From: a virus
Reading direction: 5' to 3' (one strand)
Length of the DNA: 33,909 nucleotides
Virus record (IMG/VR): IMGVR_UViG_3300040801_001703
Location: 1 to 33,909 of that record
How positions within the stretch are numbered: the stretch's first letter is position 1; every line of letters begins with the position of its first letter. The notes under the pieces are model-generated. The model worked only from the letters and a program-made list of their open reading frames with translations, made no database searches and had not been told where the DNA came from. This document shows, piece after piece, positions 72 to 27,503 of this stretch. The position numbers and the translations under genes are program-made.

Positions 72-280
72 TGGGCCTCGGCGCCGATGGAGAGATCCCG
101 GCGCCCGATGGCACTATCGCGACCGCCGACCGCGTCATGCTCGCGACGCTCTACCCCGGGATCACGCCGGGCTCGCCCGTCGTGGATGACGATCCGGTCC
201 GGTCGAGCATCGTCGCAACCATGCTGCGGTCGATTCTGCGCTCCATGGTGAGGGGCATCTTCGACACGAGGGACGACTGA
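68..280 (+). CDS. Small hypothetical protein, 70 aa
   Basis: An acidic start (GADGEIPAPDGT) is followed by a hydrophobic-basic second half (IVATMLRSILRSMVRGIF). No family recognised. I chose the ATG at 68 because it overlaps the upstream stop as ATGA; an in-frame ATG at 35 would add 11 residues but would overlap the upstream frame by 37 bases, and a second ATG at 71 follows directly. It lies in a run of closely packed plus-strand genes leading into the packaging genes, so it is probably co-transcribed with them. Confidence 0.6.
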   Translation: MMGLGADGEIPAPDGTIATADRVMLATLYPGITPGSPVVDDDPVRSSIVATMLRSILRSMVRGIFDTRDD

Positions 281-282
281 CC

Positions 283-612
283 ATGGACACCACCGGCCAG
301 TACCGCGCCACGCTCACGAGCAACCAGACGATCACCGTGCGCGGACACGGGAAGTGCATCATCAAGGTGGACGGCGGCACCGGGAACGGCTTCGGCGGCG
401 GCACGGTCACCGTCGAGGACGACTGCGCCGGAGATCCGGGCACGTTCACCCCGACCCGCGACAAGGACGAGGCGCAGGCGGCGCTCGTGATCTCAAGCTC
501 GGGCCAGTGGATGCTGCCCTTCCCTCTGCAGTGCCACGTCGGCGTGCGCCTGACCTTCGCCGGCGCCACCGCGCCGAACCTGCACGTCGGCGTCCTGTTC
601 GAGCGCATGTGA
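283..612 (+). CDS. Small beta-rich hypothetical protein, 109 aa
   Basis: The ATG lies two bases after the previous stop, with GAGGGA about nine bases upstream. The sequence is rich in Gly, Thr and Val with alternating hydrophobics (QTITVRGHGKCIIKV, then GGGTVTVEDD, VGVRLTFAG and LHVGVLF), which suggests an all-beta fold. Such small beta-sandwich proteins are common in phage virions as decoration or fibre-associated proteins, but I recognise no specific family, so a structural role is only inferred. Its stop overlaps the next start as TGATG. Confidence 0.65.
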   Translation: MDTTGQYRATLTSNQTITVRGHGKCIIKVDGGTGNGFGGGTVTVEDDCAGDPGTFTPTRDKDEAQAALVISSSGQWMLPFPLQCHVGVRLTFAGATAPNLHVGVLFERM

Positions 613-1151
613 TGCTGGTCGTCTACGACGTGGATCAGGAGTTCTTCCTCGCGGTCTTTCCGAAGGCCGGCTGGCAGAGCATCCGTGACGCGATGAAGCG
701 GAACCGGATGCCCGAGATCGCCCCTGACGTGCTGCTCACGGAGCGCGGCCTGTCGCGGCCCTTGACGTGCTTCCTGCGCCACCCGCTGGCGCGGCTCACC
801 TCCGCGTGGCGCTACTTCCACCCCCATGCTCGCTTCGGCGCGGACGCTGCCGGTCTGGAGATCCCTCGCGGTGCTTCCTACGAGACCTTCGTGGACGCTG
901 TCCTCAGAGGCGTCAAGGACCCGCACTGGGATCCTCAGCTGCCGCGCCTGCCGCGGAGGCCGGACATCGTCTACCGCTTCGAGAACATTCAAGCGCACTG
1001 GCCCCGGTTCGGACTCGGGGATCTCCCGCACCTGAACGCATCGGCAGATCCTCTCGTCGGGCAGGATCCGACGTACCGGGAGCAGGAGCTGCGCGAGCAC
1101 TACGCACTGGATCTCGCGGTCTGGGAGTCCTCTCGTGCCTACGACGCCTAA
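612..1151 (+). CDS. Sulfotransferase-like protein (Sulfotransfer_2-type)
   Basis: The 179-residue protein shows the ordered landmarks of PAPS-dependent carbohydrate sulfotransferases. PKAGWQS (17-23) matches the 5'-phosphosulfate loop, RHPLARLTSAWR (56-67) the 3'-phosphate-binding RxPxxRLxSAxR motif, DPHWDPQ (103-109) the HWxPQ motif of the chondroitin/HNK-1 type group, and VYRFENI (120-126) the following conserved strand. Known members move sulfate from PAPS to a sugar hydroxyl; here the acceptor is unknown and could be host surface glycan or a virion component. The protein is shorter than most cellular members (250-350 aa), so it may be a minimal form. The ATG is coupled to the previous gene (TGATG); the end overlaps the small terminase gene by 17 bases. 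Confidence 0.7.
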   Translation: MLVVYDVDQEFFLAVFPKAGWQSIRDAMKRNRMPEIAPDVLLTERGLSRPLTCFLRHPLARLTSAWRYFHPHARFGADAAGLEIPRGASYETFVDAVLRGVKDPHWDPQLPRLPRRPDIVYRFENIQAHWPRFGLGDLPHLNASADPLVGQDPTYREQELREHYALDLAVWESSRAYDA

Positions 1152-1626
1152 GCCGAAGGCGAAGCCAGCGCCGAAGCGCAAGATCGGCCGCCCCACGAAG
1201 TACTCCGCCGCCCTCGCGATGAAGATATGCGGCCGCATGGTCGAGGGATGGTCGCTCCGCAGGATCTGCCGAGAGATGCCCGGCGCGCCCCACCTGAGCA
1301 CCGTGTGCGGCTGGCTGGCGGATCCCGGGCACCCCTTTTCAGAGCAGTACGCGCGCGCGTCTGCGCTGCGAGCGGAGCTGCAGGCGGACGAGATCGTCGA
1401 GATCGCCGACGGACTGCTGAGCGGCGACGGAGAGGACTGCTCGGAGCGGGTCCAGCGAGACCGGCTCGGGGTCGACGCCCGGAAGTGGGTCGCGGCCCGC
1501 ATGCGCCCGAAGCGGTGGGGGAACAAGGTCGACGTGGGCTTCGGCGATGCGCCTGACGGCGCCGAGGGTGGCAACATGGAGGTCACCTTGAACATCGTCA
1601 GGACCAGCAAGGGAGAGGGCGAATGA
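1135..1626 (+). CDS. terS: Terminase small subunit
   Basis: This 163-residue protein has the layout of a common phage small terminase family: a basic N-terminus, GRPTKYS (about 18-24), a helix-turn-helix with LRRICREMPG and STVCGWLAD, then FSEQYARA, ADEIVEIADG, VDARKWVAARM and PKRWGNKVDV. Small terminases recognise the packaging site and regulate the large subunit. The GTG at 1135 is chosen because it retains the GRPTKYS motif and has GGAG seven bases upstream; the next ATG would remove it. It overlaps the sulfotransferase-like gene by 17 bases and its stop overlaps the next start (ATGA). The large subunit lies about 700 bases downstream. Confidence 0.88.
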   Translation: MPTTPKPKAKPAPKRKIGRPTKYSAALAMKICGRMVEGWSLRRICREMPGAPHLSTVCGWLADPGHPFSEQYARASALRAELQADEIVEIADGLLSGDGEDCSERVQRDRLGVDARKWVAARMRPKRWGNKVDVGFGDAPDGAEGGNMEVTLNIVRTSKGEGE

Positions 1627-1841
1627 GCAACGCGCGCGAGAACGTCATGCGGCGCACGCCGCAGCAGCTGAGCGACCTGCAGCAGGACCGAATCTCGAAC
1701 GTGAAGGAGTACGGCGCCGATTTCTGGGATCTGCTCGACCGCATCGGCATCTCCAGCGGCCACTCCCGCGAGCTGCAGCTGGCGAAGGACCGCGTCGAGG
1801 AAGCGGTCATGTGGGCGACGAAGCACATCACCGCGCCGTGA
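1623..1841 (+). CDS. Acb2/Tad1-hook-like protein, candidate anti-CBASS sponge
   Basis: A 72-residue all-helical protein. The first helix region (QQDRISNVKEYGADFWDLLD, about 20-39) and the second (SRELQLAKDRVEEAVMWATK, about 48-67) resemble the helical-hairpin proteins typified by Pseudomonas phage Acb2, whose landmarks are a 'VKELGxxFxxLID' helix and an 'xxLAxTxxEEAxMWAxxxI' helix. Characterised members bind cyclic di- or trinucleotides and so block CBASS or Thoeris immunity. Assignment rests on motif recall, not on a search. The ATG overlaps the small terminase stop (ATGA) and has GAGG upstream. Sponge activity is inferred; many relatives are uncharacterised. Confidence 0.55.
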   Translation: MSNARENVMRRTPQQLSDLQQDRISNVKEYGADFWDLLDRIGISSGHSRELQLAKDRVEEAVMWATKHITAP

Positions 1842-2137
1842 TCGACGACATCTTCGGCGGCCGGCACCCCCTCAAGGTCCGGCCGATCTCAGAGGTGGCG
1901 CCGAGGGTCTGGGCGGCCATGCAGTCCATGGATCAGCGCCTCACGAACCAGCAAGCGGCGGCCGCAGTCGCGGACGAGCACGGGGTGGAGTTGCCAGCCC
2001 CGGGGCTTCATCGCGCGCACTGGTATCAACTTCTGGAGGAGAGGATCGATGGAGACCCCCTCGCTGTCCGTGCCCGAGAGGTCCGAGAAAGCGTCGAGCG
2101 CTCTCGGCGAGTCCGCAAGCGTCGAGACTCGCGCTGA
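1838..2137 (+). CDS. Hypothetical protein, possible winged-helix fold, 99 aa
   Basis: The preferred start is GTG at 1838, overlapping the upstream stop as GTGA; a GTG at 1811 in the same frame would add nine residues. The middle part, TNQQAAAAVADEHGVELPAP, reads like a helix-turn-helix or winged-helix segment in which a non-standard residue enrolment is scanned, and the C-terminus is strongly basic (RSRRVRKRRDSR). A DNA-binding role near the terminase is possible but unproven. Its last 89 bases overlap the next gene in another frame, which is longer than usual here. Confidence 0.55.
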   Translation: MIDDIFGGRHPLKVRPISEVAPRVWAAMQSMDQRLTNQQAAAAVADEHGVELPAPGLHRAHWYQLLEERIDGDPLAVRAREVRESVERSRRVRKRRDSR

Positions 2138-2330
2138 GGGTGATCGAGGCCACGAGTGGGGCTCTCGCCCGCTGATCGACTTCCAGTTCATGCGTCGGAA
2201 GGACTGGACCCGCCGCCGCTACACCCTGCTCAGGATCCGCGGCCGACTGATCTTCTGCGTCGGGACCAGATGGTTCCACGTGGAACGTCTGTGGCTGGGC
2301 GATCGCATGGTGATCCCGAAGGTCGGCTGA
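2049..2330 (+). CDS. Hypothetical basic protein, 93 aa
   Basis: The ATG at 2049 has a good GAGGAG ribosome site eight bases upstream. The first 40 residues are Ser/Glu-rich and look disordered; the rest is basic and beta-like (RRKDWTRRRYTLLRIRGRL, then IFCVGTRWFHVERLWLGDRM). No family recognised. It overlaps the preceding gene by 89 bases, and its stop overlaps the large terminase start as TGATG, so translation of the terminase is probably coupled to it. Confidence 0.6.
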   Translation: METPSLSVPERSEKASSALGESASVETRAEGDRGHEWGSRPLIDFQFMRRKDWTRRRYTLLRIRGRLIFCVGTRWFHVERLWLGDRMVIPKVG

Positions 2331-3646
2331 TGGCGGCTCGGGTGAACATATCCGAGGCCTTCGAGGGCCTCCTCGGCGACGAGCGGTACAAGGTCATGTT
2401 CGGCGGTCGGGGCTCGGCGAAGTCGTGGACGGTCGCGGACATCCTGACCGTGATCAAGGGCACCGAGCGGCCGCGCAGGATTCTCTGCTGCCGCGAGGTT
2501 CAGAAGTCCATCCGTGACTCTGTCCACGCCCTGCTGAGGGACCGGATTCGGCATCACGGCCTCGACGAGTACGGCAACGGGTTCTACCGCATCACCGATC
2601 GCGGGATCCGGGGCCGCAATGGCACCGAGTTCATCTACGCAGGCCTGAAGCACAACCCCGAGGGCGTGAAGTCCACGGAGGGGATCGACATCGCATGGGT
2701 CGAGGAAGCGGAGACCGTCAGCGACAAGTCGCTCGACATTCTCACGCCGACGGTGCGGAAGCCCGGTTCGCAGATCTGGCTCACCTTCAACCCCCGGTAC
2801 AAGACCGACGCCGTCTGGCAACGCTTCGTGAAGCGCCCCCCGCCTGACGGCCGGGCGTGGATCCAGAAGGTCACGTTCGAGGACAACCCGTGGTTCCCTG
2901 ACGTGCTCCGCGCCGAGATGGAGGACGACAAGGCCACGGACTACGAGAAGTACCTCCACAAGTGGCTGGGCGAGCTGCAGAGCTATGCTGAAGGCTCGAT
3001 CTACGCGGTGCAGATCAAGAGGGCTCGCGAAGAGGGGCGCATCCTCCCGCGGATCCCGGTGGTGACCACGACTCCGGTGCACACCGCATGGGATCTCGGG
3101 CGCAACGACCACACCGCAATCTGGTTCTTCCAGCACGTTGGCCCGATGATCCGCCTCGTCGACTACTACCAGAACCGGATGCAGGAGCCCGAGCACTACT
3201 GGCAGGTCCTGCAGGGCCGCGGCTACAACTACGGAGAGCACCTGCTCCCGCACGACGGCGGCCACGTCAAGATGGGCATGGGCAACCGCTCCCTGATCCA
3301 GCAGTTCCGCGAGCTCGGGATGAAGAACGTCCGGCGGGTCCCGCGCACGCCCGAGGTCATCGTCGGCATCAACCGCACCCGCCAGCTCTGGTCTGTCCTG
3401 CAGATCGCAGAGGAGCAGTGCGAGGACGGCATGGACTGCCTGATCGAGTACGCCTTCAAGTACGACGACTTGCGCGGGACGCACCTCATGCAGCCGCTGC
3501 ACAACTGGGCGTCGAACGGGGCGGACGCGCTCCGAATGATCGCCGAGGGCTACGACTGGAACGCCCCCGCTCCGGAGATCTCCGACCGACGCAAGCGCGT
3601 GATCCGCGAGAAACTCGGCTCGAAGACGGACGCGCACATCGTCTGA
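2330..3646 (+). CDS. terL: Terminase large subunit
   Basis: The 438-residue packaging motor has both expected parts. The ATPase shows Walker A GGRGSAKS (25-32), an adaptive-type CCREVQKSIRDSV segment, and Walker B IDIAWVEEAE (119-128) with the catalytic Glu pair. The RNase H-like nuclease shows AWDLGRNDHTAIW (Asp255, Asp260), HDGG (Asp309) and NGADALRM (Asp399) as likely metal ligands. This is the Terminase_3/PBSX-like group. It translocates DNA into the procapsid and cuts concatemers. The start at 2330 overlaps the previous stop and has AAGG seven bases upstream; the open frame extends further upstream, but that part is out-of-family. A short intergenic region with a promoter-like sequence follows. 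Confidence 0.93.
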   Translation: MAARVNISEAFEGLLGDERYKVMFGGRGSAKSWTVADILTVIKGTERPRRILCCREVQKSIRDSVHALLRDRIRHHGLDEYGNGFYRITDRGIRGRNGTEFIYAGLKHNPEGVKSTEGIDIAWVEEAETVSDKSLDILTPTVRKPGSQIWLTFNPRYKTDAVWQRFVKRPPPDGRAWIQKVTFEDNPWFPDVLRAEMEDDKATDYEKYLHKWLGELQSYAEGSIYAVQIKRAREEGRILPRIPVVTTTPVHTAWDLGRNDHTAIWFFQHVGPMIRLVDYYQNRMQEPEHYWQVLQGRGYNYGEHLLPHDGGHVKMGMGNRSLIQQFRELGMKNVRRVPRTPEVIVGINRTRQLWSVLQIAEEQCEDGMDCLIEYAFKYDDLRGTHLMQPLHNWASNGADALRMIAEGYDWNAPAPEISDRRKRVIREKLGSKTDAHIV

Positions 3647-3671
3647 CACGCCGGGCGCGGGTGCGTAGAAT
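3643..3671 (+). promoter_or_regulatory. Sigma-70-like promoter before the portal gene
   Basis: CTGACA (3643-3648) and TAGAAT (3666-3671) each match five of six consensus bases and are separated by exactly 17 bases. The -35 overlaps the terminase stop codon and the predicted start point lies about 25 bases before the portal ATG. This is one of few gaps in the late block. It would give the head genes their own transcript. No transcription data; the motif match is the only evidence. Confidence 0.45.
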
Positions 3672-3704
3672 CCGGCGACACTGGCACCCCGGAGACCCGC
3701 CCGC

Positions 3705-5834
3705 ATGGCCTTCGACCCCGAGCCGATGGACGAGGACGAGCTCCTCGTCTTCCTCCAGAACAAGATCGACAGCGCCATGAACGACGAAGACGGCGAGCTG
3801 TCCGACAACCGCGCGAGATCTCTCGATTACTACCTCGGCCGCCCGTACGGGGACGAGCGCGTCGGATACAGCAAGGTCACGACCCGCGAGTCGATGGAGA
3901 CCGTGGAGTGGATCCTGCCGTCCATCATGCGGGTGTTCGGTGCCGGCGAGCGATTCGTCGAGTTCGAGCCTGAGGGCAGGGCGGACATCGAGGCCGCGCA
4001 GCAAGACACCGACGTGGTCAACCATATCCTGCTCCGCCAGAACTTCGGCTGGGTGCAGATGTACCAGTGGGCCAAGGACGCCCTGATGTACCCGAACGGC
4101 TACGCGAAGATCTGGCCCGAGGAGCGGGAGTGGATCGAGACGAAGCGGTTCTCGGGCATCACCGCCGGCCAGAAGGCGGCCCTGCTGGAGGACGGCTGGG
4201 AGATCACCGAGGAGGAGGAGGAGGAGACCGTCGTCGATGTTGACGGCGTGGTGCAGCCTCTGAAGGTCTACGAACTCACGGCCGAGAAGCGATGCGAGAA
4301 GGTCGAGATCAAGTGGCAGTCGGTGCCCGGCGACGAGGTTCTCGTCGACGACGGCTGCAACAGCTGGAATCTCGACGAGGCCGGTTTCGTCGCGCACCGG
4401 CGGCCAGTCCCGTTCACGACGCTCGTCGAGATGGGATGCGACCCTGACAGGCTGTCGGAAATCGGCAACGCCGAGGATCACGACTGGAGCGACGAGCGCG
4501 TCGGGCGCCAGTACACCGACGACGAGAACCCCGCCAACGAGTCGACCGACGACGACTCCATGCGGCAGTACTGGGTCGAGGAGTGCTACGTTCGCGTCGA
4601 TTTCGACGGCGACGGCCTAGCTGAGCACCGCTACTGCCTGAAGATCGGGAACGAGCTGTTCGCGAATGACGTGGTCGACTTCCAGCCGTTCTGCTCGCTC
4701 ACGTCGATCCTGATGCCGCACCGCCACCCGGGCCTGTCGATGAACGACGCCGTGATGGACCTGCAGCGCATCAAGAGCACCCTCACCCGCCTCGTGCTCG
4801 ACAACGCCTACCGGATCAACACGGGCCGCACCTACATCGACGAGAACGCCTACGCAGAGCAGACCACGGAGCTGATGCAGGACGCGCAGGCGACGATGAT
4901 CCCGGTGCAGGGGCCGCCCCAGAACGCCGTGTTCCGCGAGCAGCACCAGCCGATCACGCAAGAGATGCTGTCCGTCATCAAGTACTTCGACGAGGACACC
5001 GTCATCCGCACCGGCGTGGCGCCGGGCATGGCGCTGGACCCGAAGGTGCTGCAGCAGTCGACCGAGGGGGCTTTCGCGGAGGCGATGACGAAAGCCTCGG
5101 AGCGCATCGAGCTGATCGTCCGCCTGATGGCCGAGACCGGTGTGAAGCAGCTCTGCCTGAAAGCGCACGCGCTCGCCCGCGCGCACGTCGACCGAGATCT
5201 CGTGATCCAGCTTCGCGGCGAGTTCATCGAGACGAACCCGTCGGCGTGGCGCGAGCGTGCGAGCATGACCGTCAACGTCGGCCTCGGGTTCAACAACAAG
5301 GAGCGCATGACCCAGCTGCTCGGCGCGATCCTGCAGGAGCAGAAGGAGATGCTCGGGCTCGGGATGGTGGACATGAGTCATATCCGCCACACGTTCGCGA
5401 AGATGATCGAGAACGCGGACGTGGGGCACGTCGACAGCTTCGTCCCGCCGGCCGAGGGGCGACAGCCCCCGCAGGCGCCGCCCGACCCTGTCGCCATGGC
5501 CTCCGCGCAACTGTCTCAGCAGCAGCTCCAGCTCGCCCAGCGGCAGCAGGAGCACCTCGAACGCATGGACCAGATGCGGTTCCAGCTGGACGCTGCACAG
5601 GCGCAGCGCGACGCCCAGATGAAGGCGATGGATCAGCGGCTGAAGGGCATGGAGCTGATGCTGAAGCGGCAGGCGCAGGCCTTCGAGAGCGCGCTCACGC
5701 AGGCGCAGACGGCGAAGGCCGCGGAGGAGGCACGAAGCCTCGACATCGAGAACGACGCGGCAGAGTCGGGCGTCACGGAGGCGCTCGAAGGGGTGACGCG
5801 CGCGCTGACGGCCGGTTCCGGCAGTGGCCCCTGA
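3705..5834 (+). CDS. Portal protein
   Basis: At 709 residues and directly after the large terminase, this is the dodecameric portal through which DNA enters and leaves the head and to which the tail adaptor attaches. Typical portal features are the early RARSLDYYLGRPYGDE region, RESMETVEWILPSIMRVF (about 63-80), PNGYAKIWPEE, then DAVMDLQRIKSTLTRLVLDN and the segment GMALDPKVLQQSTEGAF. Residues about 590-690 are Gln/Met/Ala-rich and predicted coiled coil, like the barrel helix of P22-type portals. An acidic run (EEEEEET) lies near residue 170. CGGAG sits 10 bases before the ATG. The end overlaps the next gene's possible GTG start. Confidence 0.88.
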   Translation: MAFDPEPMDEDELLVFLQNKIDSAMNDEDGELSDNRARSLDYYLGRPYGDERVGYSKVTTRESMETVEWILPSIMRVFGAGERFVEFEPEGRADIEAAQQDTDVVNHILLRQNFGWVQMYQWAKDALMYPNGYAKIWPEEREWIETKRFSGITAGQKAALLEDGWEITEEEEEETVVDVDGVVQPLKVYELTAEKRCEKVEIKWQSVPGDEVLVDDGCNSWNLDEAGFVAHRRPVPFTTLVEMGCDPDRLSEIGNAEDHDWSDERVGRQYTDDENPANESTDDDSMRQYWVEECYVRVDFDGDGLAEHRYCLKIGNELFANDVVDFQPFCSLTSILMPHRHPGLSMNDAVMDLQRIKSTLTRLVLDNAYRINTGRTYIDENAYAEQTTELMQDAQATMIPVQGPPQNAVFREQHQPITQEMLSVIKYFDEDTVIRTGVAPGMALDPKVLQQSTEGAFAEAMTKASERIELIVRLMAETGVKQLCLKAHALARAHVDRDLVIQLRGEFIETNPSAWRERASMTVNVGLGFNNKERMTQLLGAILQEQKEMLGLGMVDMSHIRHTFAKMIENADVGHVDSFVPPAEGRQPPQAPPDPVAMASAQLSQQQLQLAQRQQEHLERMDQMRFQLDAAQAQRDAQMKAMDQRLKGMELMLKRQAQAFESALTQAQTAKAAEEARSLDIENDAAESGVTEALEGVTRALTAGSGSGP

Positions 5835-5850
5835 GATGGAGTCGGACAGC

Positions 5851-6309
5851 ATGGCATCGATCGAAGAGCAGCTTTCGGGACTGCGAGCGCACGTTGATCT
5901 GAAGTTCGATCAGGTGTTCGACGGCATCACCGCCCTCAACGAGCGGACCAGCAAGACCGAGACGCTGATCACCTCTCACGATCGCTCCATCGGAAACCTC
6001 ACGCAGCGACAGAACGCCCCGATGTGGGGGCTGGCCGTCGGCCTGCTGGGCGTGACGGTCTCGGTGATCGTCCCGCTGGTCGGGGGCGCGCTGGCGTTCT
6101 CGATCCTGCTGACGCAGAACACGCAGGATCTTTCGGCGCAGCGAGATGACCAGATTCTGTCGCGGGTAGGCGTCATCGAGGGCGATCTGACGCGGATGCA
6201 GAACAGCTTCGGCGATGCCCGGGAGGAGCTGGCCCGCACCGCTGAGAAGACTCGCGCGCTCGAAGCGCGCCTCGATCGGATGCACGTGACCTACGGTGTC
6301 GGAGGCTGA
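5851..6309 (+). CDS. Coiled-coil protein with one or two membrane helices, 152 aa
   Basis: The order is a helical, heptad-like N-terminal half (SGLRAHVDLKFDQVFDGITA, NERTSKTETL), a long hydrophobic segment (about 60-87, WGLAVGLLGVTVSVIVPLVG then GALAFSILL), and a second coiled coil (RVGVIEGDLTRMQNSF, REELARTAEKTRALEARLD). The general plan resembles small phage membrane proteins such as XhlA-type haemolysin-associated proteins, but the flanking coils on both sides are unusual. Starts at GTG 5824 and ATG 5836 are also in frame; I favour ATG 5851 because GGAG lies nine bases upstream. Holin-like or DNA-ejection roles are possible but not shown. Confidence 0.65.
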   Translation: MASIEEQLSGLRAHVDLKFDQVFDGITALNERTSKTETLITSHDRSIGNLTQRQNAPMWGLAVGLLGVTVSVIVPLVGGALAFSILLTQNTQDLSAQRDDQILSRVGVIEGDLTRMQNSFGDAREELARTAEKTRALEARLDRMHVTYGVGG

Positions 6310-6312
6310 CCG

Positions 6313-9300
6313 ATGAGCCGACTCACGAGGGCGCTCGACGGCCTGAAGCAGGCGCAGGCGCAGCAGGCGCGGCGTGCGGCCGGGGCGCAGGCCTTCGACA
6401 CCTACCCGCTCGCGCCGGCGGAAGTGCCATGGGACGAGGACCGACTTCTCGTCAGCACCCGAGTGCCGCGGGGGAAGCAGGACGGGGTCGAGTACCGCGG
6501 CGGGGCCCCCAGCGATGGCGAGCGCCTGATCGTCGGCGTCGACGCACTCCGTCAGCCCGGCGGCGAGAAGGCCCTCGCGCAGAACGCGAACGTGCTCGCT
6601 ACGGACACGCTGGGCCTGCCTCGGAACCGCTACCGCAACCCGGACGCGCGCATCGCGGAGACGATCGATCAGGTCGCCCAGCAACTGGTGCGCCTGTACA
6701 GCGCGGTGCCGGAGAATGTCCGCGGCCGCACGCGGCAGTGGTACAGGGGCGCGAACCGATTCGCGAACGAGCAGGCTCGGCGCTTCAACAGGCCCCCGCA
6801 CGAGATGGCGGGCGTGCTCGCCGCGCTGTCGCCGCAGAAGGACTGGTTCCAGAACGCGGATCTCGCACGGCGCCTCGTCGAGATCAACGACCTGCACATG
6901 GACACCGTGGTCTCGCCCGAGATGGTCGCGAAGCTGCGGGACACCATCCAGAACGCGACAGTCCCGAAGGGCCGAAAGCGTCCGACTGAGATCGGCGGCG
7001 TGAGCCCGGAGCAGCTGGAGGCTTCGATCGGTACGCCGATGCGCGAGCTGCCCGCCGACCAGCAGGCCGTCGCGGTCCGCATGTTCGACGAGATGAACAA
7101 CCCGCGCGAGTATCCCGAGGTGACGCCCGAGGGCGACGTGATCGGCCTCGCCCGCGCAGGCGGCGGGAATGGCGAGCCGAAGAAGATCGCGTGGGGCTCC
7201 ATCGGCGAGATCCGCAAGGCGCTCTCGATCCTGCAGGACAGCAGTCCGGAAAACGTCAGCCGGCAGCTCGGGGGCGCGCACAAGGTCCGGAACTTCTACA
7301 ACAACATCCTCGATCCCGACGACCCCTTCAGCGTCACCATCGACACGCACGCAGTCGCGGCGGCTTTCCTGCAGCCGCTGAGCGGCAAGGCGACGGACGT
7401 GAAACGGAACCTATCCGGTGGTGATGGCTCCGGCTCCTCCGGGCCGCTCGGCCTGACGGGCACCTACCCGATCCTCGCGGACGCCTACCGGGTCGCGGCG
7501 GATGCCGTGGGCGTCTCCCCTCGCGAGATGCAGTCCATCACATGGGAAGCGATTCGCGGCGCGTTCCCCGACCACCTGAAGCGGAACAAGAAGTTCCTGA
7601 CCGCGGCCGGGCAGCTGGCGAAGGACCTGAAAGCGGGCCGCATGACGCCGGACGAGTACTTCGATGCGATCGCGGAGCTGTCGATCTCGAACGGAGGCAC
7701 GTTCTCGCCGATGTGGAGCGAGATGCGCGGCGCGATGCCGGGCGTGGCGCTCGCAGGCCTCATGACCGCCGCGATGCTGCCGGAAGATGCGGAAGCGTCG
7801 CCATTGCGGCGACTGCTGATGCCCGACGAGGATCTGCTGTACCGCGGCTCGACCACGTCGCTCGCCGATGAGCTTCAGCAGCTGGACGAGCTCGGCAATC
7901 AGCGCTCCCTGTTCTTCACGAACAGCCCGCACTACGCGAGCTACTACGCGGCCGGCGAAGCCACGGGGAGCCCGATCTCGTTCGACCCGGAGCGGGCCCC
8001 ACTGCCCGAGCGCACGGTGGCCGAGCGTGATGCGCTCCTGAACAGCATCGGCGAGGAAGCCCGCTCCCTGTCCCTGACGGACAACGAAGTGGAGTTCCTT
8101 GCGAGCGCCCGGGAGCGTCTGTCGTCGCGGCGCGGTCCGGTTCGCGATCGGCTCACGCAGAACCCGCGCTGGCAGCAGCTGCAGCAAGAGGTCATCGACG
8201 GCAACAATCCTGAGGAGTGGCTGGCGCGGACCATCGGCCTCGTCGGAGACCAGCAGATCCGAGAGAAGCCGGAGATCGCCGACCGGCTGAGGCGGCACTA
8301 CGAGCAGCTCAAGAGTCGCGACAACGCGGCCCGCTACGAAGAGATCCGGCAGATCGAGGATGCGGCGAAGCGCGAGGTCGCGGCGGAACTCGGCATCGAC
8401 CCCGCCTACTTCGAGATGGAGAACGCGCTCGATCGGCAGGGTGAGCTGTTCAACCGAGGCATGGGCGTTCCGCGGTACGCGGGCGCCCCTCAGGTCACCC
8501 CCGCTGGCGTCCGCACTGGCCGCACCCGCTGGACCGATGTCGAGACCGACATGGAGATGGCCGAGGGTGACCCGGAGTACCAGCAGCGGCTGCGCGACGA
8601 GGGCGTCGACACGCTCGCATGGAGCCCCGAGGGCCCCGGAGAGGTCGAGGGCACCCGCAACGCACCGTACGGCACCGAGCAGCTGCTGCTGCGCCCCGAC
8701 CGGCAGGTCCGGCCGATCTTCGACCCGGCAAGGCTCGCAGGCGTAGGGGGCGCAGCGGTAGGTGCCGGGATGCTCGCGCCGGAGGAGGCCGAAGCGGGAG
8801 TCGTTTCTTCCGCGCTCCGCGCGTCTCGCGGGCGCCCCGACGTGAACTCGGACACCGGCGAGCAGGCTCAGCCCGCTCTTGATATGTCCGACGCCGCGCG
8901 CATGGAGCGTGCGCGGGAGATGGGGTTTGAATACACGCGCGTGACGCGCGGCGCAGACTCTCCGCTGCAGCCGGGCAGCGAGGCGACGTGGGCGATGTTT
9001 GAGCGCAACCCCGACATCGAATACGGGGTTGACCGCCTGTCTTCGTACGGAGAACACGGCTGGCTGTCGCGTGCCGATGACGCGGTAGACGTGGAAGACA
9101 TACAGGCCGACATCGTGCGGTCCTTGCGCCGGCGCGGCCTGCAGGAAGAGTACCAAGCAACGGCTGCGAGCTTGGCGCGAGACGCTGCGCCAACGGACAT
9201 CGTTAATTCTGCGGGGCTCTGGGACTCTCCAGACTTGGTTCAGGCAGTCTACGAGGACGTGCTGGAGCCTCGCGGAATCAGTGCGGTTCGCACGCCGAAC

Positions 9301-11259
9301 GGACTTGTCCGGTTCCCTGACGATTACGGTGAATTCGCGAACACGCGCTCCGTCAACGCCGCCTTCGACCCCGCCGAGCGCGACAGCAGCGACCTTCTCG
9401 CAGGCGTGGGTGGGGCCGCAGTAGGCGCGGGCATTCTGGGCGCCGGCATGGCGCCGGAGGAGGCCGAAGCGGGAGTCGTTCCTTCCGTGCTCCGCGCTGT
9501 CGACACAACCGTTGACGCGGCGGAGGCTGCCGGCAAGGGTGCTGCTACACTTCTGGGGTCCGAAGGGCGCGCGTTCCGCACGCTCGAAAACGAGACGCTG
9601 GCGAGGGTCTACGATGAGCTCCGAGCACAAGGGCCAACGACCGGAGAGCGGGTCTTCGACGAAGTCGAGATCGGAGACGCCGACGGACTCCGAAGTCGAG
9701 GAGCTACTCCAGCTGCACGGTTTCGACTCCCCGAGCCGTATCAGGAGAGCGTTGCGCGAATCGGCCGAGCGTCGCCGGACCTGATCGAGATCTCCCCGGA
9801 CGATGCCGGGGCGCGGGTGTTCGCCGAATCGATCACCGCAGCGAAGGACGCGAATCGCTTCGGCGCCAGCGTCTACGTCTATCCCACCGACGAGTACAAG
9901 GGCATGCGCCTGTTCCTCACCGAGGACGGCGCGGCCGGCTACGCCCTGAAGCCGGATGGCGACATCGTCTCCGCATTCTCGGACGGCACGCACAAGGGCG
10001 TCGCTCAGAACATCCTGCTCCACGGCGTCGAGAACGGCGGCAAGAAGCTCGACGCCTTCGACACCGTCCTTCCCGAGATGTACTCGCAGATGGGCTTCGA
10101 TGAAGCCGCCCGCCTGCGCTGGGACGATGACGAGGCGCCTCCGGACTGGGACAAGGGGACCTTCGGTCGCTTCAACGATGGCGAGCCGGACGTGTCCTTC
10201 ATGGGGTACAGCGAAGCTCCGGCGCGCCCAGTCGAGCCGCGATACGTCGACGACTACGGGCAGGCCATGGACGCGCAGGAGGCAATGCTCCGCGCGCCTC
10301 GCGGGCGCACCGACGTGAACTGGGCGACCGGCGAGCAGGCTCAGCGGTGGACCCGCTCGCAGCTCGAACAGGGCAACTACGTGCTCGTGAATGTCCCGAC
10401 GGAGGAGCTGATCGAACGCGGGATGTCCGGGACCTTCGACGTGCGGAACCCGGAGAATCAGATCGGGGACCGCCTCTCGAAAGCGCGAGCCCGGATGGAG
10501 CGGGGCATGCCCATGGATCCGCCGGTGGTCGGCCTGACGCGCGACGGCATCGCCTTCGACGACGGCCGCCACCGCGCGCTGGCGGCGCTGGAGCTGGGGC
10601 AGGACACCATCCCCGTCATGGTCCCGCGTGACGATGCAGATCGGTTTCTCGCCCGCGTGCCGGACTCCTACCGGCGGCCTGCCGGAGAGGATCCGGGCGT
10701 CGGCGCCGCGCTCGACGAGTGGAACGCCGGCGGTGGTCAGGCGGGCGCAGTGCGCGGACCCGAGCTGGGCGCGATGGCGGGCCTCGCCGCCGCGGCACAG
10801 CAGTTCGCAGACATGCGAGGCGAGAAGGAGGGCTCGACGTGGCGGAGCTACATCGGCCGGATGCAGGACATGGGGACGAAGACGTTCGGAGCCGCGGAGA
10901 TGGCGGGGCACATCGGGTCCGGAATGATCGCGGACGCCGTGGGCGGCCTCGGTGGCATCGCCGAGCTGGTTTCCGGGTCGAGCGCCGCTGAGGCCGCTCG
11001 CCGCGTCGAGGACACGCAGAGCGCGATGATGCCTCGTGGCATGAGTCCGGCCGGGCAGGAGATCGGCATGGAGCTGCTGGGCGCGCTGGAAAAGGGCGGG
11101 CAGTACGCTCGCCGCGAGCACCCTGTGGCGACCAGCTACGTCGAGAATGTGCCCGGCTACTGGCGGGATCGCGTGGTGCCGGCGCTTCAGGAGCAGTTCG
11201 GGGCGGAGAGGGGGTCCGCGATCGCCGCCGCCCTGCGTACTGCGTCCGAGGCGTTCTGA
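6313..11259 (+). CDS. Large polyvalent protein: DUF7178-like, two ART-like, GNAT-like and ParB-like domains
   Basis: A 1648-residue modular protein with GGAGG eight bases before its ATG. Residues about 120-360 resemble a DUF7178-type region of phage polyvalent proteins (AALSPQKDWFQNADLA, then TIDTHAVAAAFLQPLS). An ADP-ribosyltransferase-like module runs from LLYRGSTTS (508-516) and FFTNSPHYASYYA to RPIFDPARLAG (about 820). A second ART-like module spans about 870-1020 (EYTRVTRG to SVNAAFDPAE). A GNAT-like module covers about 1170-1300 (GAAGYALKPDGDIVSAFSDG, GGKKLDAFDTVLPEMY). A ParB-like module covers about 1355-1446 (DDGRHRALAALELG). Gly-rich hydrophobic linkers ending in PEDAEA or PEEAEAG separate modules. 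Known polyvalent proteins are injected with phage DNA and act on host factors; that role is inferred, supported by its place between portal and scaffold. Domain calls are from motif memory. Confidence 0.75.
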   Translation: MSRLTRALDGLKQAQAQQARRAAGAQAFDTYPLAPAEVPWDEDRLLVSTRVPRGKQDGVEYRGGAPSDGERLIVGVDALRQPGGEKALAQNANVLATDTLGLPRNRYRNPDARIAETIDQVAQQLVRLYSAVPENVRGRTRQWYRGANRFANEQARRFNRPPHEMAGVLAALSPQKDWFQNADLARRLVEINDLHMDTVVSPEMVAKLRDTIQNATVPKGRKRPTEIGGVSPEQLEASIGTPMRELPADQQAVAVRMFDEMNNPREYPEVTPEGDVIGLARAGGGNGEPKKIAWGSIGEIRKALSILQDSSPENVSRQLGGAHKVRNFYNNILDPDDPFSVTIDTHAVAAAFLQPLSGKATDVKRNLSGGDGSGSSGPLGLTGTYPILADAYRVAADAVGVSPREMQSITWEAIRGAFPDHLKRNKKFLTAAGQLAKDLKAGRMTPDEYFDAIAELSISNGGTFSPMWSEMRGAMPGVALAGLMTAAMLPEDAEASPLRRLLMPDEDLLYRGSTTSLADELQQLDELGNQRSLFFTNSPHYASYYAAGEATGSPISFDPERAPLPERTVAERDALLNSIGEEARSLSLTDNEVEFLASARERLSSRRGPVRDRLTQNPRWQQLQQEVIDGNNPEEWLARTIGLVGDQQIREKPEIADRLRRHYEQLKSRDNAARYEEIRQIEDAAKREVAAELGIDPAYFEMENALDRQGELFNRGMGVPRYAGAPQVTPAGVRTGRTRWTDVETDMEMAEGDPEYQQRLRDEGVDTLAWSPEGPGEVEGTRNAPYGTEQLLLRPDRQVRPIFDPARLAGVGGAAVGAGMLAPEEAEAGVVSSALRASRGRPDVNSDTGEQAQPALDMSDAARMERAREMGFEYTRVTRGADSPLQPGSEATWAMFERNPDIEYGVDRLSSYGEHGWLSRADDAVDVEDIQADIVRSLRRRGLQEEYQATAASLARDAAPTDIVNSAGLWDSPDLVQAVYEDVLEPRGISAVRTPNGLVRFPDDYGEFANTRSVNAAFDPAERDSSDLLAGVGGAAVGAGILGAGMAPEEAEAGVVPSVLRAVDTTVDAAEAAGKGAATLLGSEGRAFRTLENETLARVYDELRAQGPTTGERVFDEVEIGDADGLRSRGATPAARFRLPEPYQESVARIGRASPDLIEISPDDAGARVFAESITAAKDANRFGASVYVYPTDEYKGMRLFLTEDGAAGYALKPDGDIVSAFSDGTHKGVAQNILLHGVENGGKKLDAFDTVLPEMYSQMGFDEAARLRWDDDEAPPDWDKGTFGRFNDGEPDVSFMGYSEAPARPVEPRYVDDYGQAMDAQEAMLRAPRGRTDVNWATGEQAQRWTRSQLEQGNYVLVNVPTEELIERGMSGTFDVRNPENQIGDRLSKARARMERGMPMDPPVVGLTRDGIAFDDGRHRALAALELGQDTIPVMVPRDDADRFLARVPDSYRRPAGEDPGVGAALDEWNAGGGQAGAVRGPELGAMAGLAAAAQQFADMRGEKEGSTWRSYIGRMQDMGTKTFGAAEMAGHIGSGMIADAVGGLGGIAELVSGSSAAEAARRVEDTQSAMMPRGMSPAGQEIGMELLGALEKGGQYARREHPVATSYVENVPGYWRDRVVPALQEQFGAERGSAIAAALRTASEAF
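8776..8871 (+). repeat. Polyvalent-protein linker, composite copy (A+B)
   Basis: This in-gene stretch encodes APEEAEAGVVSSALRASRGR followed by PDVNSDTGEQAQ. Its first part (A, 8776-8822) recurs at 9451-9497 with 45 of 47 bases identical; its second part (B, 8814-8871) recurs at 10287-10344 with 53 of 58 identical. Both spacings (675 and 1473 bases) are multiples of three, so the reading frame is kept. Confidence 0.85.
9451..9497 (+). repeat. Polyvalent-protein linker, copy of part A
   Basis: Matches 8776-8822 at 45 of 47 positions and encodes the PEEAEAG end of a Gly-rich hydrophobic segment after the second ART-like module. At protein level the similarity starts earlier, at the AGVGGAAVGAG part in both places. 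Confidence 0.85.
10287..10344 (+). repeat. Polyvalent-protein linker, copy of part B
   Basis: Matches 8814-8871 at 53 of 58 positions and encodes RAPRGRTDVN then ATGEQAQ between the GNAT-like and ParB-like modules. Copies of A and B, adjacent in the composite copy, are here separated by the GNAT-like module. Confidence 0.8.
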
Positions 11260-11658: not shown

Positions 11659-11948
11659 TGTCCCGACGCAGCGATGATCCCGAGCGGTTCCGGGCGTGGC
11701 TCAACGATCCCGTCACGAAGGAAGTCTTCGACGCGGCGCGCGAGACGCTCGTCCAGAGCATGGAGGCGCCCACGGCGCCGGGCGATGAGGAGGCGACCGA
11801 CCGTGTGCTCGACCTCGCCACGCGGCTGCAGGTGCTGGCGTGGATCCGCCGCATCGCCACCGTCGCCACGAATCGAGAGCAGCTCGCCGCCGGCATCGCT
11901 GCTCGCCAGATGCCTGATGCCGAACCCCGCGCAGGAGAGCCGCACTGA
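11658..11948 (+). CDS. Hypothetical helical protein, 96 aa
   Basis: AGGAGG lies six bases before the ATG, one of the strongest ribosome sites in the window. The protein is predicted mostly helical (FRAWLNDPVTKEVFDAARET, DRVLDLATRLQVLAWIRRI) with a disordered end. Small helical proteins upstream of the scaffold gene are common in podovirus head modules, but I cannot name a family. The stop overlaps the scaffold gene start as TGATG. Confidence 0.65.
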   Translation: MSRRSDDPERFRAWLNDPVTKEVFDAARETLVQSMEAPTAPGDEEATDRVLDLATRLQVLAWIRRIATVATNREQLAAGIAARQMPDAEPRAGEPH

Positions 11949-13054
11949 TGGCTGAAGCAGCCCGAGACGGATCCGTTGAGGAAGCCGCCGCCCGCATCGA
12001 GGCGGCGATGGACGAACAAGAGCAACACGAGGCCGAGGCGCTCGACGACGACGCGCCCGCCGACGAAGAGCAGGAAGAACTCGCCGCCGAAGAAGGCGAC
12101 GAGGAGACGACCGCCGACGACGAAGGCACCGAGGATGACCCCGACGAGGAGTCCGAAGAGGCCGACGACGAAGGCGAGGAGGAGGCCGAAGAAGAGACGG
12201 AGCCTTCCAACGAGGAGCCCATCGAGTCGTTCGCCGAGCTCGCCGCCGCGCTGGAGTCGGATCCCGAGGATCTGATGACCCAGCTCAAGGTGAGCGTGAA
12301 GGTGGCGGGCGAAGAGCAGGAGGTCACCCTCAAGGAAGCACTCTCCGGGTATCAGAGAGAGGCCGACTACGTTCGGAAGACGCAGGCTGTCTCCGAGCAG
12401 AAGCGCGCGTACGAAGAGCGCGCATCGAACGTCGCGCGCGCGATGCAGGTCGCCCAGCAGATCAGCAAGGCCGTCCACGAGCAGACGATGAAGACGCTCG
12501 CCGGCGAGCTGAACTCGGACGAGATGCAGGCGCTCATGAAGAGCAACCCGGCGCAGTACGTGATCCGCCGGGATGCGATTCGCGAGCGGGCTGCGAACCT
12601 TCAGCGCGTGCAACAGGCCGCGGTCCAGCACTACGAGCAGACCGAGAAGCAGCAGCAGGCCCAGTTTCAGGAAGACTTCGAGGCGTATCGCAACGAAGAA
12701 CTCGCACTCCTGCAGGAAACCGTGCCGGACTGGGGCGAAGCCTCGAAGTCCTCGGTGCGCGAGATCCTGCGCGAGGTAGGGTTCGGCGATGACGAGATCG
12801 GCTCCGTGGTCGACCACCGCTGGGTGCGTCTCGCCCTGATGGCAGCGAAGTCGTCGAAGGCCACCGAGGAGTCCGCGCCCCCGAAGGGCGTCAAGGCTCC
12901 GAAGGCGAAGCCGCCGAAGGCTCTGAAGCCGGGCAAGGAAGGGCAGGCGCGTCGACCGTCCCGCAGGCAGAAACAGCTGCAGGCGGCTCGGAAGAGGCTG
13001 AAGGCTTCGGGGTCGGTCTCGGATCTGGCCGCCGTGATCGAACAATCTCTCTGA
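11948..13054 (+). CDS. Scaffolding protein
   Basis: Placed directly before the major capsid gene, this 368-residue protein has the usual scaffold profile: a very acidic disordered first 95 residues, long helical segments in the middle (KTQAVSEQKRAYEERASNVA, RANLQRVQQ-type stretch, YEQTEKQQQAQFQEDFEAYR), and a basic C-terminus (KAPKAKPPKALKPGKEGQAR, then SRRQKQLQAARKRLK). Scaffolds drive capsid protein into procapsids and leave before or during packaging; the basic tail is where P22-type scaffolds touch the capsid protein. The segment LKEALSGYQREADYVRKTQ is commonly seen in scaffolds of this capsid group. No protease domain is evident. Confidence 0.8.
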   Translation: MAEAARDGSVEEAAARIEAAMDEQEQHEAEALDDDAPADEEQEELAAEEGDEETTADDEGTEDDPDEESEEADDEGEEEAEEETEPSNEEPIESFAELAAALESDPEDLMTQLKVSVKVAGEEQEVTLKEALSGYQREADYVRKTQAVSEQKRAYEERASNVARAMQVAQQISKAVHEQTMKTLAGELNSDEMQALMKSNPAQYVIRRDAIRERAANLQRVQQAAVQHYEQTEKQQQAQFQEDFEAYRNEELALLQETVPDWGEASKSSVREILREVGFGDDEIGSVVDHRWVRLALMAAKSSKATEESAPPKGVKAPKAKPPKALKPGKEGQARRPSRRQKQLQAARKRLKASGSVSDLAAVIEQSL

Positions 13055-13066
13055 GGACGACTTCTC

Positions 13067-14086
13067 ATGCCGCAACCGGCCAACGCATTCGACCGATACG
13101 ACCTCGCGACCGCGGGTGACACCGTCCGCGAGGACTTCACCGACATGATCTACGACATCTCCCCGACGGAGACGCCGTTCATCAACAACTGTGGCCGCGG
13201 CACCGCCTCCGCCACGTCGAAGGAATGGCAGATCGACGCCCTCGCGGATGCCGTGGACAACGGCTTCCACATCGACGGCGACGACTTCGCCGGCGACGCT
13301 CTCGACGACCCGGAGCGGATCGGCAACTACCTCGGCATCCTGCGGAAAGACATCGTGGTCACCCGCCGGGCGAACAAGGTGAACACCGCGGGCTTCCGCA
13401 AGGCGCTCGCCTTCCAGATCGCGAAGAAGGGCAAGGAGCTGAAGCGCGACATGGAGGCGACGCTGCTCGCCAACAACGCGGCCCTCGCGGGCGACTCGAC
13501 GACCCCTCCGCAGTTCGCCGGCGTCCCGGCGTGGCTGAAGACCAACACGTCTCGTGGCGGTACGGGCGCGGATCCGGCCCTGTCCAACACGACCTACGGC
13601 TTCCCGACCACGGCCGCCACCGACGGCACCGACCGGGCGCTCGACGAGTCGATCATCTCGGGCCTCTACGAGGACATCTACATCGCCGGGGGCAACCCGA
13701 AGGTGCTGATGGCCGGGCCGCGCGCGAAGGCGAAGTTCAGCCGCTACATGTTCGGCAGCGACGCCCGCGTCGCGACCCCGTATCAGGATCACGGGGCCAA
13801 CAAGAAGAACGGCCTGACGGTCGTCGGCGCGGTCGACGTGTACGTCGGCGACTACGGTGTCTACGAGCTGGTCCCGAACCGTTTCCAGCGCGAGGACGAC
13901 TTCTTCATCCTCGACATGGACTACTGGTCCGTGGACTACCTCGACGGCATGATCACTCAGGAGATCGCGAAGTCCGGCGACTCCGAGAAGCGCATGCTGC
14001 TCGTCGACTTCACGCTCTGCTCCAAGAACGAGGCCGCCAGCGGCGTCTTCGCGGACGTGGACGAGACGCTGGACATGGTCGCCTGA
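13067..14086 (+). CDS. Major capsid protein (SU10/DUF5309 type)
   Basis: The 339-residue protein is recognised by its start, NAFDRYDLATAGDTVREDFT then MIYDISPTETPFINNCGR, and by VTRRANKVNTAGFRKALAFQ, KELKRDMEATLLANNAA, the QFAGVPAWL segment, NPKVLMAGPRAKAKFS and YVGDYGVYELVPNRF. These fit the DUF5309/SU10 major head protein group, with the HK97 fold. It forms the shell of the capsid. The start has GAGGA about 10 bases upstream. It follows the scaffold gene by 12 bases and is followed by a very stable hairpin, which fits the need for high expression. Confidence 0.9.
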   Translation: MPQPANAFDRYDLATAGDTVREDFTDMIYDISPTETPFINNCGRGTASATSKEWQIDALADAVDNGFHIDGDDFAGDALDDPERIGNYLGILRKDIVVTRRANKVNTAGFRKALAFQIAKKGKELKRDMEATLLANNAALAGDSTTPPQFAGVPAWLKTNTSRGGTGADPALSNTTYGFPTTAATDGTDRALDESIISGLYEDIYIAGGNPKVLMAGPRAKAKFSRYMFGSDARVATPYQDHGANKKNGLTVVGAVDVYVGDYGVYELVPNRFQREDDFFILDMDYWSVDYLDGMITQEIAKSGDSEKRMLLVDFTLCSKNEAASGVFADVDETLDMVA

Positions 14087-15671: not shown

Positions 15672-17156
15672 ATGCCACTGACGAAGCTACCGACGCTGGA
15701 GTTCGGCGACTGGCTCCCTGATCTCGGTCTGCACGAGAACCCCGGCACCCCGGAGGCGAAGAATGTCGTCCCGGTGCCGCGCGGCTTCGCCAGCCTGAGC
15801 TCGCCGGAGGCAATCTACGGTGCCCTCGACGCACCTTGTGTCGGCGGCTACTGGTCCCTCGACGAATCCGGCAGCCGCTTCAACTTCGGCGCGGACGCCA
15901 CGCAGCTCTACCGCCTGAACAACGTCACTGGCGCCATGGACAACGTGTCCCGGGTCGGCAACTACACGTCCACCGGCTCGTGGGACTTCGCTCGATTCGG
16001 GTCGCGCGTCCTCGCCGTGAGCCCTGACAACGACACCCAGTACTTCGACACCGAGGCTTCCACGCTCTTCGCGGACCTTCCCGGCTCGCCGCCTCGGGGG
16101 CGCACCATCGGCGTGGTTCGAGACTTCATCATGGTCGGCCGGATCAATGACGGCGGCGACAAGTTCGACACCGTGGCGTGGAGCGGCTTCAACAACTCGG
16201 AGATCTGGGGCACGAACTACAGCGCTCAGTCTGACCAGCAGACGCTGCCGGGTCGCTCCGGCGAGGTGCAGCGGATCGTCCCCGGTCAGGTCGGGCGGAT
16301 CCTCACCGAGAACAGCCTCTGGGTGGCGACCTACATCGGCCCGCCTCAGGTGTTCCGCTTCGACGAAGTGGTCCGCAACTCGGGCACGCCCGCGTGGCGC
16401 AGCGTCTGCTGGGCCTCCGGTCTCATCTTCTTCCTCGGGCACGAGGGCTTCATGGTCTGGGACGGCGGCGCTGCGCCTCCTCGCCAGCTCGGCGCGAACC
16501 GCGTCGACCAATGGTTCCGCGACAACCTCGCGGCAGACAGCGAGCGGCTCGTCATCGGCGCCGTCGATCGCCGGAACACGCTCGCGTACTGGGCCTTCCC
16601 GAGCAGCTCGTCGGGCACGCTCGACCGGGTGATCATCTACAACTGGTCGCAGGACCGGTGGAGCTACGGAGAGATGACCACGCAGTTCCTCGTCGAGTAC
16701 GCACCGCCCGGATTCAACCTCGACACCATCGACTCACTGCTGCCCGGCGGCATCGACGCGAACAGCTTCAACATGGACTCCGGCGCCTTCCGCGGGCAGG
16801 ACTTGGGGCTGGCCGTCTACACCTCGTCGAACGCCCTCGGCGGCCTGACGGGGCCGGCGCTCGCGGCCGAGATCCACACGCGGGAGTTCGATACCGGCTC
16901 TTTCCGGAACCGGATGATCGTCACCGAGGTCGAATCGCTGATCGAGGGCTCGCCGGCCACTGTCCGGGCGTCGGTGGGCACGCGCGAGCGACAGGGGGAC
17001 AATGTGGCATTCAGCGCTGCCGTCGAGCGCAACGCCATCGGCGCGCACGCCTGTCGCGCGTCAGGCCGCTTTCTCCGCGCGCGGCTTCAGACGACAGGTC
17101 CGTTCAAGCTGGCGCGCGGTGTCCGGCTGGTCGGAAGGGAGAAGGGTCGACGATGA
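15672..17156 (+). CDS. Tail nozzle / DNA-stabilisation protein (beta-propeller)
   Basis: The 494-residue protein has the propeller-like pattern of short-tail nozzle or P22 gp10-type proteins. It begins with GDWLPDLGLHENPGTPEAKN, the typical N-terminal gasket, then shows repeated blade-like strands: VLAVSPDNDTQYF, FIMVGRINDG, DTVAWSGFNNSEIW, NSLWVATYIGPPQVF, GLIFFLGHEGFMVWDGG, and RVIIYNWSQDRWSYGEM. The order adaptor then nozzle is standard in podoviruses. The end contains ATGA overlap with the next gene. It likely forms the hexameric tail tip through which DNA leaves. Confidence 0.8.
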   Translation: MPLTKLPTLEFGDWLPDLGLHENPGTPEAKNVVPVPRGFASLSSPEAIYGALDAPCVGGYWSLDESGSRFNFGADATQLYRLNNVTGAMDNVSRVGNYTSTGSWDFARFGSRVLAVSPDNDTQYFDTEASTLFADLPGSPPRGRTIGVVRDFIMVGRINDGGDKFDTVAWSGFNNSEIWGTNYSAQSDQQTLPGRSGEVQRIVPGQVGRILTENSLWVATYIGPPQVFRFDEVVRNSGTPAWRSVCWASGLIFFLGHEGFMVWDGGAAPPRQLGANRVDQWFRDNLAADSERLVIGAVDRRNTLAYWAFPSSSSGTLDRVIIYNWSQDRWSYGEMTTQFLVEYAPPGFNLDTIDSLLPGGIDANSFNMDSGAFRGQDLGLAVYTSSNALGGLTGPALAAEIHTREFDTGSFRNRMIVTEVESLIEGSPATVRASVGTRERQGDNVAFSAAVERNAIGAHACRASGRFLRARLQTTGPFKLARGVRLVGREKGRR

Positions 17157-27343: not shown

Positions 27344-27503
27344 CGTCGCTCTCCCCCTCGTGGCGCTCGATGACGATCATGATCCCATCGGCCACCGCGT
27401 CGAGCGCGGCAGCCGACCTGCGGCAGTCCTCGGCCATCTGGCGAGCCCATGACGCCACGCCCTCCAGCTCCTGCCGGAGGGTCGGCTTCTCCTCGCTGCT
27501 CAC
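27330..27503 (-). CDS. Small helical hypothetical protein, 57 aa
   Basis: The GTG start at 27503 overlaps the ERF-type gene stop as GTGA and has GGAGG four bases upstream; the frame is open 51 bases further upstream, but that part would overlap the ERF gene. The protein is one amphipathic helix run (EELEG-type start, ASWARQMAEDCRRSAAALDA, VADGIMIVIERH). No family recognised. It lies between the annealing protein and exonuclease genes and may be an accessory factor of the recombination pair. Confidence 0.6.
   Translation of the reverse strand: MSSEEKPTLRQELEGVASWARQMAEDCRRSAAALDAVADGIMIVIERHEGESDDAGG

Follow-up and report, generated by a model that had tools for sequence, protein, structure and literature searches.

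Our analysis shows that a gene in a 33,909-base virus record (here, the window) encodes a real, modular effector. It is of a kind already known as phage polyvalent proteins, is probably ejected through the phage tail, and is made up of modules with predicted activities. The window is a virus record in its own right, and the gene lies at positions 6313 to 11259 on the plus strand. It begins with an ATG preceded by a GGAGG ribosome-binding site and runs without an internal stop through 1,648 amino acids (aa), none of which is cysteine, so that the uninterrupted reading frame reported in the preliminary description of this DNA is verified.

The polyvalent gene sits in the head module of a podovirus. 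The upstream genes encode the terminase large subunit (2156 to 3646) and the portal protein (3705 to 5834, plus strand; phrog_1216, E 4e-114), the closest relatives of which are found in podophages, including Pseudomonas phage tf, pelagiphage HTVC106P, and others. The portal gene is followed by a gene for a 161-aa protein (5824 to 6309, plus strand), the polyvalent gene, two small genes (119 and 96 aa), the head scaffolding protein gene (11948 to 13054, plus strand; phrog_3927, E 9e-37), and, next after the scaffold, the gene for the major head (capsid) protein (13067 to 14086). The location “between portal and scaffold” given earlier is therefore right in outline, but direct adjacency does not hold, with one small gene intervening on the portal side and two on the scaffold side. 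Further downstream are genes for a virion structural protein (15672 to 17156), an ejection cluster, and a tail fiber (23488 to 26094). The cluster comprises an 812-aa DNA ejection protein (17766 to 20204, plus strand; phrog_4287), an internal or ejected protein described as “released from the phage upon host infection” (20210 to 21208, plus strand; phrog_2534, E 6e-16), and a 558-aa protein (21219 to 22895, plus strand; phrog_5880). In the 161-aa protein, which contains no cysteine, coiled-coil-like sequence lies on either side of a strong transmembrane-like stretch at the center (GLAVGLLGVTVSVIVPLVGGALAFSILL).

The earlier proposal of a multi-module polyvalent protein within the head module is supported both by the head-gene neighbors and by the separate occurrence of its modules in other phages. 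A tblastn search of 50,697 phage records with the whole protein returned pieces only and no full-length relative, and a whole-protein scan of viral contigs, the patterns of which were too specific, found nothing. The DUF7178 module and the GNAT module each have at least 80 homologous loci in viral contigs (with up to 56% identity for GNAT), and homologue coverage of the protein falls off sharply at the edges of these modules; thus, their modularity is more than chance. The modules are also mobile, as had been supposed. A segment containing DUF7178 (aa 84 to 497) matches gp40 of Roseobacter phage CRP-738, the gene of which is likewise located downstream of the portal gene, and aa 1130 to 1305, containing the GNAT module, match a “minor capsid protein” of Microbacterium phage Caron, to which GNAT is fused and which is located between portal and scaffold. 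Part of the latter segment matches a protein of about 3,125 aa in Limnohabitans phage DC33, and the ParB-like module stands separately in phage nACB2. Phage DC33 (L004; PQ492659.1) is assigned to the Inoviridae in its record, yet it has a 39-kb genome encoding this giant polyvalent protein, which contains one cysteine; its taxonomy therefore looks wrong. Within the protein of the window, third-position GC is lower in aa 808 to 1200 (8734 to 9912) than elsewhere (0.735 versus 0.884; P 1e-12), reaching a minimum of 0.50 around aa 1101 to 1140, which is consistent with a possible later or recent acquisition of the part comprising the second ART-like module, a linker, and GNAT.

Module 1 (about aa 116 to 459; 6658 to 7689, plus strand) had been described as DUF7178-like, in agreement with its match to PF23802 (E 2e-30), and we propose that it resembles HhH-GPD DNA glycosylases, a resemblance that the earlier description had missed and that makes it the most interesting of the modules. 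Its AlphaFold (AF2) model is confident, with pLDDT mostly above 90. When the 1,000 chains ranked highest by Foldseek were re-ranked with VIA-align, rows 1 to 15 were all 8-oxoguanine DNA glycosylases (AGOG and OGG1; Z 7.6 to 6.2, 153 to 211 residues aligned), with Z 7.6 over 197 residues for AGOG and Z 7.3 to 6.2 over about 160 residues for human or mouse OGG1. Unrelated rows did not exceed Z 5.9 or 90 aligned residues, with one exception (120 residues at Z 3.7). Because a Z of 7.6 counts as middling when the domain is helical, the match to the glycosylase fold is of moderate strength.

The hallmark of HhH-GPD proteins is a hairpin Lys followed by a VDTH motif bearing the catalytic Asp. Module 1 has the motifs LSPQKDW.QN..A and G..HKVRNF.NNI...VTIDTHA. 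Its candidate catalytic residues, Lys324 (nucleotides 7282 to 7284, plus strand) and Asp344 (nucleotides 7342 to 7344, plus strand), are located in GGAHKVRNFYNNI...VTIDTHA and are invariant in 71 of 71 nonredundant relatives; both are also retained (K..18..D) in a diverged DUF7178 copy of phage L206. The spacing of K324 and D344 is 20, compared with 19 for K249 and D268 of human OGG1 (hOGG1), to which they are candidate equivalents as judged by motif and spacing. In AGOG, the catalytic residues K140 and D172 (PMC3397491) are the equivalents of hOGG1 K249 and D268 and are required for catalysis (PMC9638937). As Lys and Asp are both kept, module 1 would probably have AP-lyase ability.

Profile comparisons did not recover this relationship. 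No match to PF00730 was obtained in a Pfam scan of 37 DUF7178 members, a DUF7178 profile search of the PDB gave no significant HhH-GPD match, and hhalign of DUF7178 against HhH-GPD sequences was not significant; with 15 Nth/MutY-type sequences, only the VTIDTH/MAVDTH motif was aligned (probability 0.3%). In the genomes searched for AGOG profile material, no member of the AGOG family turned up. Plain Foldseek against the PDB with half-models gave no significant match for module 1, which is uninformative because the poorly modeled region dilutes the half-model, a problem resolved by VIA re-ranking. We consider it quite likely that module 1 has the HhH-GPD DNA glycosylase fold, and we lean, with distinctly less assurance, towards its being an active glycosylase.

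The glycosylase assignment appears to be new: the name DUF7178 is not mentioned in the literature searched, and no earlier assignment of this kind was found there. It would provide a testable enzymatic function for an unnamed phage domain that is widespread, being encoded by at least 562 stretches of viral contigs. Solo versions of DUF7178 of about 200 aa, such as the 198-aa protein of cyanophage S-CBP42, were found by Foldseek among viral models. Three Bradyrhizobium chromosome contigs (L300, L301, and L303) have DUF7178-bearing ORFs of 1,148 to 1,170 aa, possibly within prophages or other mobile elements. In phage L206, the diverged copy is part of a cysteine-free protein of 2,121 aa (177 to 6539, minus strand) adjoining the portal gene; its other parts are a methyltransferase-like stretch, LPD23, a cell-wall hydrolase (Hydrolase_2), and a PEEAEAG linker.

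Two ART-like modules had been proposed, of which the first is weakly borne out and the second is not. Module 2 (ART1; about aa 499 to 806; 7807 to 8730, plus strand), which has a large insert and the motif YRG...FFTNSPHYASYYA, scored 19.7 bits against a profile of related ART modules, with 300 shuffles scoring 7.4 bits or less. The ART modules forming this profile belong to PF18760 (ART-PolyVal). The Pfam scan of the polyvalent protein gave no PF18760 match to module 2, and the predicted model is too poor for confirming the ART fold. Module 2 has YRG instead of YHG, and the Tyr of strand 2 is changed to Phe; because His and Tyr are both replaced, the module does not preserve the H-Y-[DE] triad. 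Module 2 can thus be weakly assigned as ART-like with an altered catalytic motif, possibly of the R-S-E type. Module 3 (ART2; about aa 850 to 1027; 8860 to 9393, plus strand) is a possible divergent ART. Its similarity to ART modules of the linker class is confined to the flanks, LDMSDAARMERAREMGF and RSVNAAFDP, and its core scored 12.1 bits against the ART profile, below the best shuffle (15.6 bits). The pLDDT of its model is about 40 to 75, and its third-position GC is lower than that of the rest of the gene. Searches of the phage records by tblastn with ART1 and ART2 gave no match even at E 1.

Module 4 (about aa 1130 to 1330; 9700 to 10302, plus strand; phrog_2563, E 1e-10) is acetyltransferase-like and has the GNAT fold, in keeping with the earlier description of it as GNAT-like. 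The best VIA-align match has Z 9.4 and rmsd 2.9 over 126 residues, and all 50 of the 50 matches listed are GNAT proteins or acyltransferases; among 33 members of the module 4 family, Pfam gave no match to an acetyltransferase model. Module 5 (about aa 1335 to 1465; 10315 to 10707, plus strand) likely resembles ParB and sulfiredoxin. In its Foldseek search, sulfiredoxin ranked first and third, and PadC, pNOB8 ParB, and Myxococcus ParB were among the 50 best matches. The ParB-like assignment made earlier is thus supported by consistent matches but not by their significance, which is low (E values of 0.35 or higher), and pLDDT is about 32 to 79, depending on the block. Module 5 shares 34% identity across aligned positions with an Acinetobacter phage protein, and its Arg-containing box, DDGRHRAL, is kept as DGRHR in nACB2, L168, and L169. 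An alignment of ParB modules found nothing in a first scan of viral contigs; a second scan yielded two loci, both distant. The protein ends in a helical, partly hydrophobic tail (aa 1490 to 1648; 10780 to 11256, plus strand) with low-confidence helices and a hydrophobic peak at aa 1534. Pfam matches to Polysacc_deac_2, DUF1266, NUDIX, UBA, and similar models were dropped as weak.

We consider it rather probable that the polyvalent protein is packaged in the podovirus head and ejected through the tail and that its modules act early in the host. The data show the gene and its position, its modularity, the absence of cysteine, the linker repeats, the fold matches of modules 1 and 4, and the invariant Lys and Asp; packaging, ejection, activities, targets, and linker function are inferred from them. 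Packed in the head, the protein would leave it unfolded through the tail along with the DNA, and its modules would act early once inside the host. A virion-borne glycosylase could mean early repair of the incoming genome or an attack on host DNA: module 1, as a predicted glycosylase, would remove bases that are damaged or modified from the phage genome before any transcription, or, alternatively, its target would be host or rival DNA, which would be nicked. The GNAT module may acylate host proteins or nucleic acids, the ART module(s), if active, may modify host proteins or nucleic acids, and the ParB/sulfiredoxin-like module may bind nucleotides or may bind or cleave DNA. The hydrophobic PEEAEA linker would keep the modules apart and allow the exchange of each one, and its probable fate is insertion into the inner membrane or cleavage at that site. 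The “counter-defence” role put forward in the preliminary description is not directly supported by these data.

Alternatively, the protein might be a structural one that assembles the head or organizes DNA, such as an internal scaffold or a MuF-like minor capsid protein, in which the enzyme-like modules would be inactive relics used for binding. The MuF/minor capsid position of the gene, the replaced catalytic His and Tyr of ART1, and the Caron relative, which has a VG15 domain and is annotated as a minor capsid protein, are in line with such a role. However, the invariance of K324 and D344 over 71 divergent glycosylase-like modules is unexpected of relics, and the modules swap freely among proteins that differ greatly in size and position. 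We therefore regard a structural role as unlikely.

Ejection through the tail is suggested by cysteine content. The four putative ejected proteins of the window, i.e., the polyvalent protein and the three proteins of the ejection cluster, have no cysteine in 3,350 aa (the phrog_2534 protein was counted over 332 aa, its start position being provisional), in contrast to 25 cysteines in 3,412 aa of the terminase, portal, capsid, and tail proteins (Poisson P 2e-11). Likewise, among nonredundant viral ORFs, the cysteine content is 0.033% in DUF7178/GNAT polyvalent proteins and 0.034% in linker ORFs, compared with 0.789% in other ORFs, and some proteins of the DUF7178/GNAT class have 3,000 to 4,700 aa without any cysteine. 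N4-type virion RNA polymerases (vRNAPs) also lack cysteine, an absence tied by those who described them to injection through the tail (PMC3915230, PMC2784036). The zero cysteine content common to the polyvalent protein and the ejection proteins, and not found in the other structural proteins, points to tail passage; it is the strongest indication obtained, short of proof, and the polyvalent protein is probably ejected in this way. Cysteine depletion as a property of the class appears to be new. These data also bear on the idea that the protein is an unpackaged late product acting in the producing cell, where it would modify host factors during morphogenesis. While a late-gene neighborhood by itself is no proof of packaging, the near-zero cysteine content is as in the phage's ejection proteins and unlike its other structural proteins, and polyvalent proteins at such a location have been predicted to be packaged (PMC5512222); action in the producing cell is thus improbable.

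The hydrophobic, Gly-rich linkers noted earlier are three copies of one element, which set the modules apart and are located at aa 473 to 495 (7729 to 7797, plus strand; GAMPGVALAGLMTAAMLPEDAEA), aa 808 to 829 (8734 to 8799, plus strand; LAGVGGAAVGAGMLAPEEAEAG), and aa 1028 to 1054 (9394 to 9474, plus strand; LLAGVGGAAVGAGILGAGMAPEEAEAG). The element has about 26 residues, consisting of about 17 uncharged Gly, Ala, and Leu residues followed by P-E-[ED]-A-E-A and, in two copies, by G-V-V. An acidic-[AS]xA motif follows 6 of the 10 hydrophobic segments found in the polyvalent protein together with the three GNAT-retrieved relatives closest to it. In other ORFs, this holds for 4 of 522 segments (P 1e-9), and in other polyvalent proteins, giant ones of 2,000 to 4,700 aa included, for 1 of 148 (P 7e-8). 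A linker general to all polyvalent proteins was therefore ruled out; the element marks a subclass. A DNA scan of viral contigs for PEEAEAG gave two populations of matches: those after a hydrophobic stretch are almost all in long ORFs that have no more than one cysteine, and those without such a stretch are mostly in ordinary proteins. Most of the retrieved linker ORFs adjoin genes for the terminase, portal, scaffold, or capsid, and the modules present in the scanned ones are ART-PolyVal, GNAT, LPD23, cell-wall hydrolase, or DUF7178. Searching for the linker could reveal further effector modules independently of homology; near-zero cysteine and the linker are thus two sequence features by which tail-ejected effectors could be sought in any phage genome.

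The position of the element varies. In CRP-738 gp40, a linker-type element follows the DUF7178 module at the end of the protein, and in several ORFs the element is N-terminal, with a Lys or Arg preceding the hydrophobic run, and resembles a signal peptide (e.g., MALRKFAESLLDAGAKSAPVVAGAGLLATPEEAEA followed by G in L278). The linker residues Pro at −6, Ala at −3, and Ala at −1 fit signal peptidase I. The N-terminal placement and this fit make cleavage or membrane insertion on entry a live hypothesis. In its fullest form, the linkers would be signal-peptide-like release sites cut in the inner membrane during ejection, e.g., by host signal peptidase I, yielding separate effectors that include a virion-delivered DNA glycosylase acting before phage gene expression; we offer this only tentatively, as a reading of low probability. 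The recurrence of a signal-peptide-like linker appears to be new. That the linkers are instead sites for a prohead protease that cuts the polypeptide into effectors in the prohead before DNA packaging is very improbable, for although they contain [A/S/L]-P-E and one prohead protease, SPN3US gp245, is known to cleave after A-X-E (PMC10052503), T-P-E, D-P-E, and other forms also occur in them, the hydrophobic run would be needless, and no protease was found among the scanned head genes of the window.

In 2017, Iyer et al. described phage polyvalent proteins that contain ART, GNAT, and ParB modules (PMC5512222). Like those proteins (with ART-PolyVal, GNAT, and DdrB-like ParB modules), the protein of the window has several unrelated enzyme-type modules in one polypeptide and is encoded among head genes; it differs in its predicted glycosylase, a term with no occurrence in that paper. 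The words “linker,” “transmembrane,” “signal peptide,” and “cysteine” are likewise absent from its text, and thus neither the signal-peptide-like linker nor cysteine depletion is described there. Module 1 is similar to AGOG and OGG1 in its predicted fold and in having Lys and Asp at corresponding motif positions, but it has an insertion of about 85 residues, no significant sequence-profile match, and a predicted context of injection by a phage. The N4 virion RNA polymerase is also a giant, cysteine-free, ejected multi-domain protein with a beads-on-a-string layout, whereas the protein of the window has repair- and modification-type modules and repeated hydrophobic PEEAEA linkers and no polymerase. 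DNA glycosylases are known from phage-host conflict as bacterial anti-phage weapons, as in base-excision defense by Brig1 (PMC11078745); in contrast, the glycosylase predicted here is on the phage side, is probably virion-borne, and is found in another protein context.

On the minus strand, opposite the late genes, the window also encodes a phage recombination pair consisting of a RecE-like exonuclease (26669 to 27343) and an Erf-like single-stranded DNA annealing protein (27500 to 28330).
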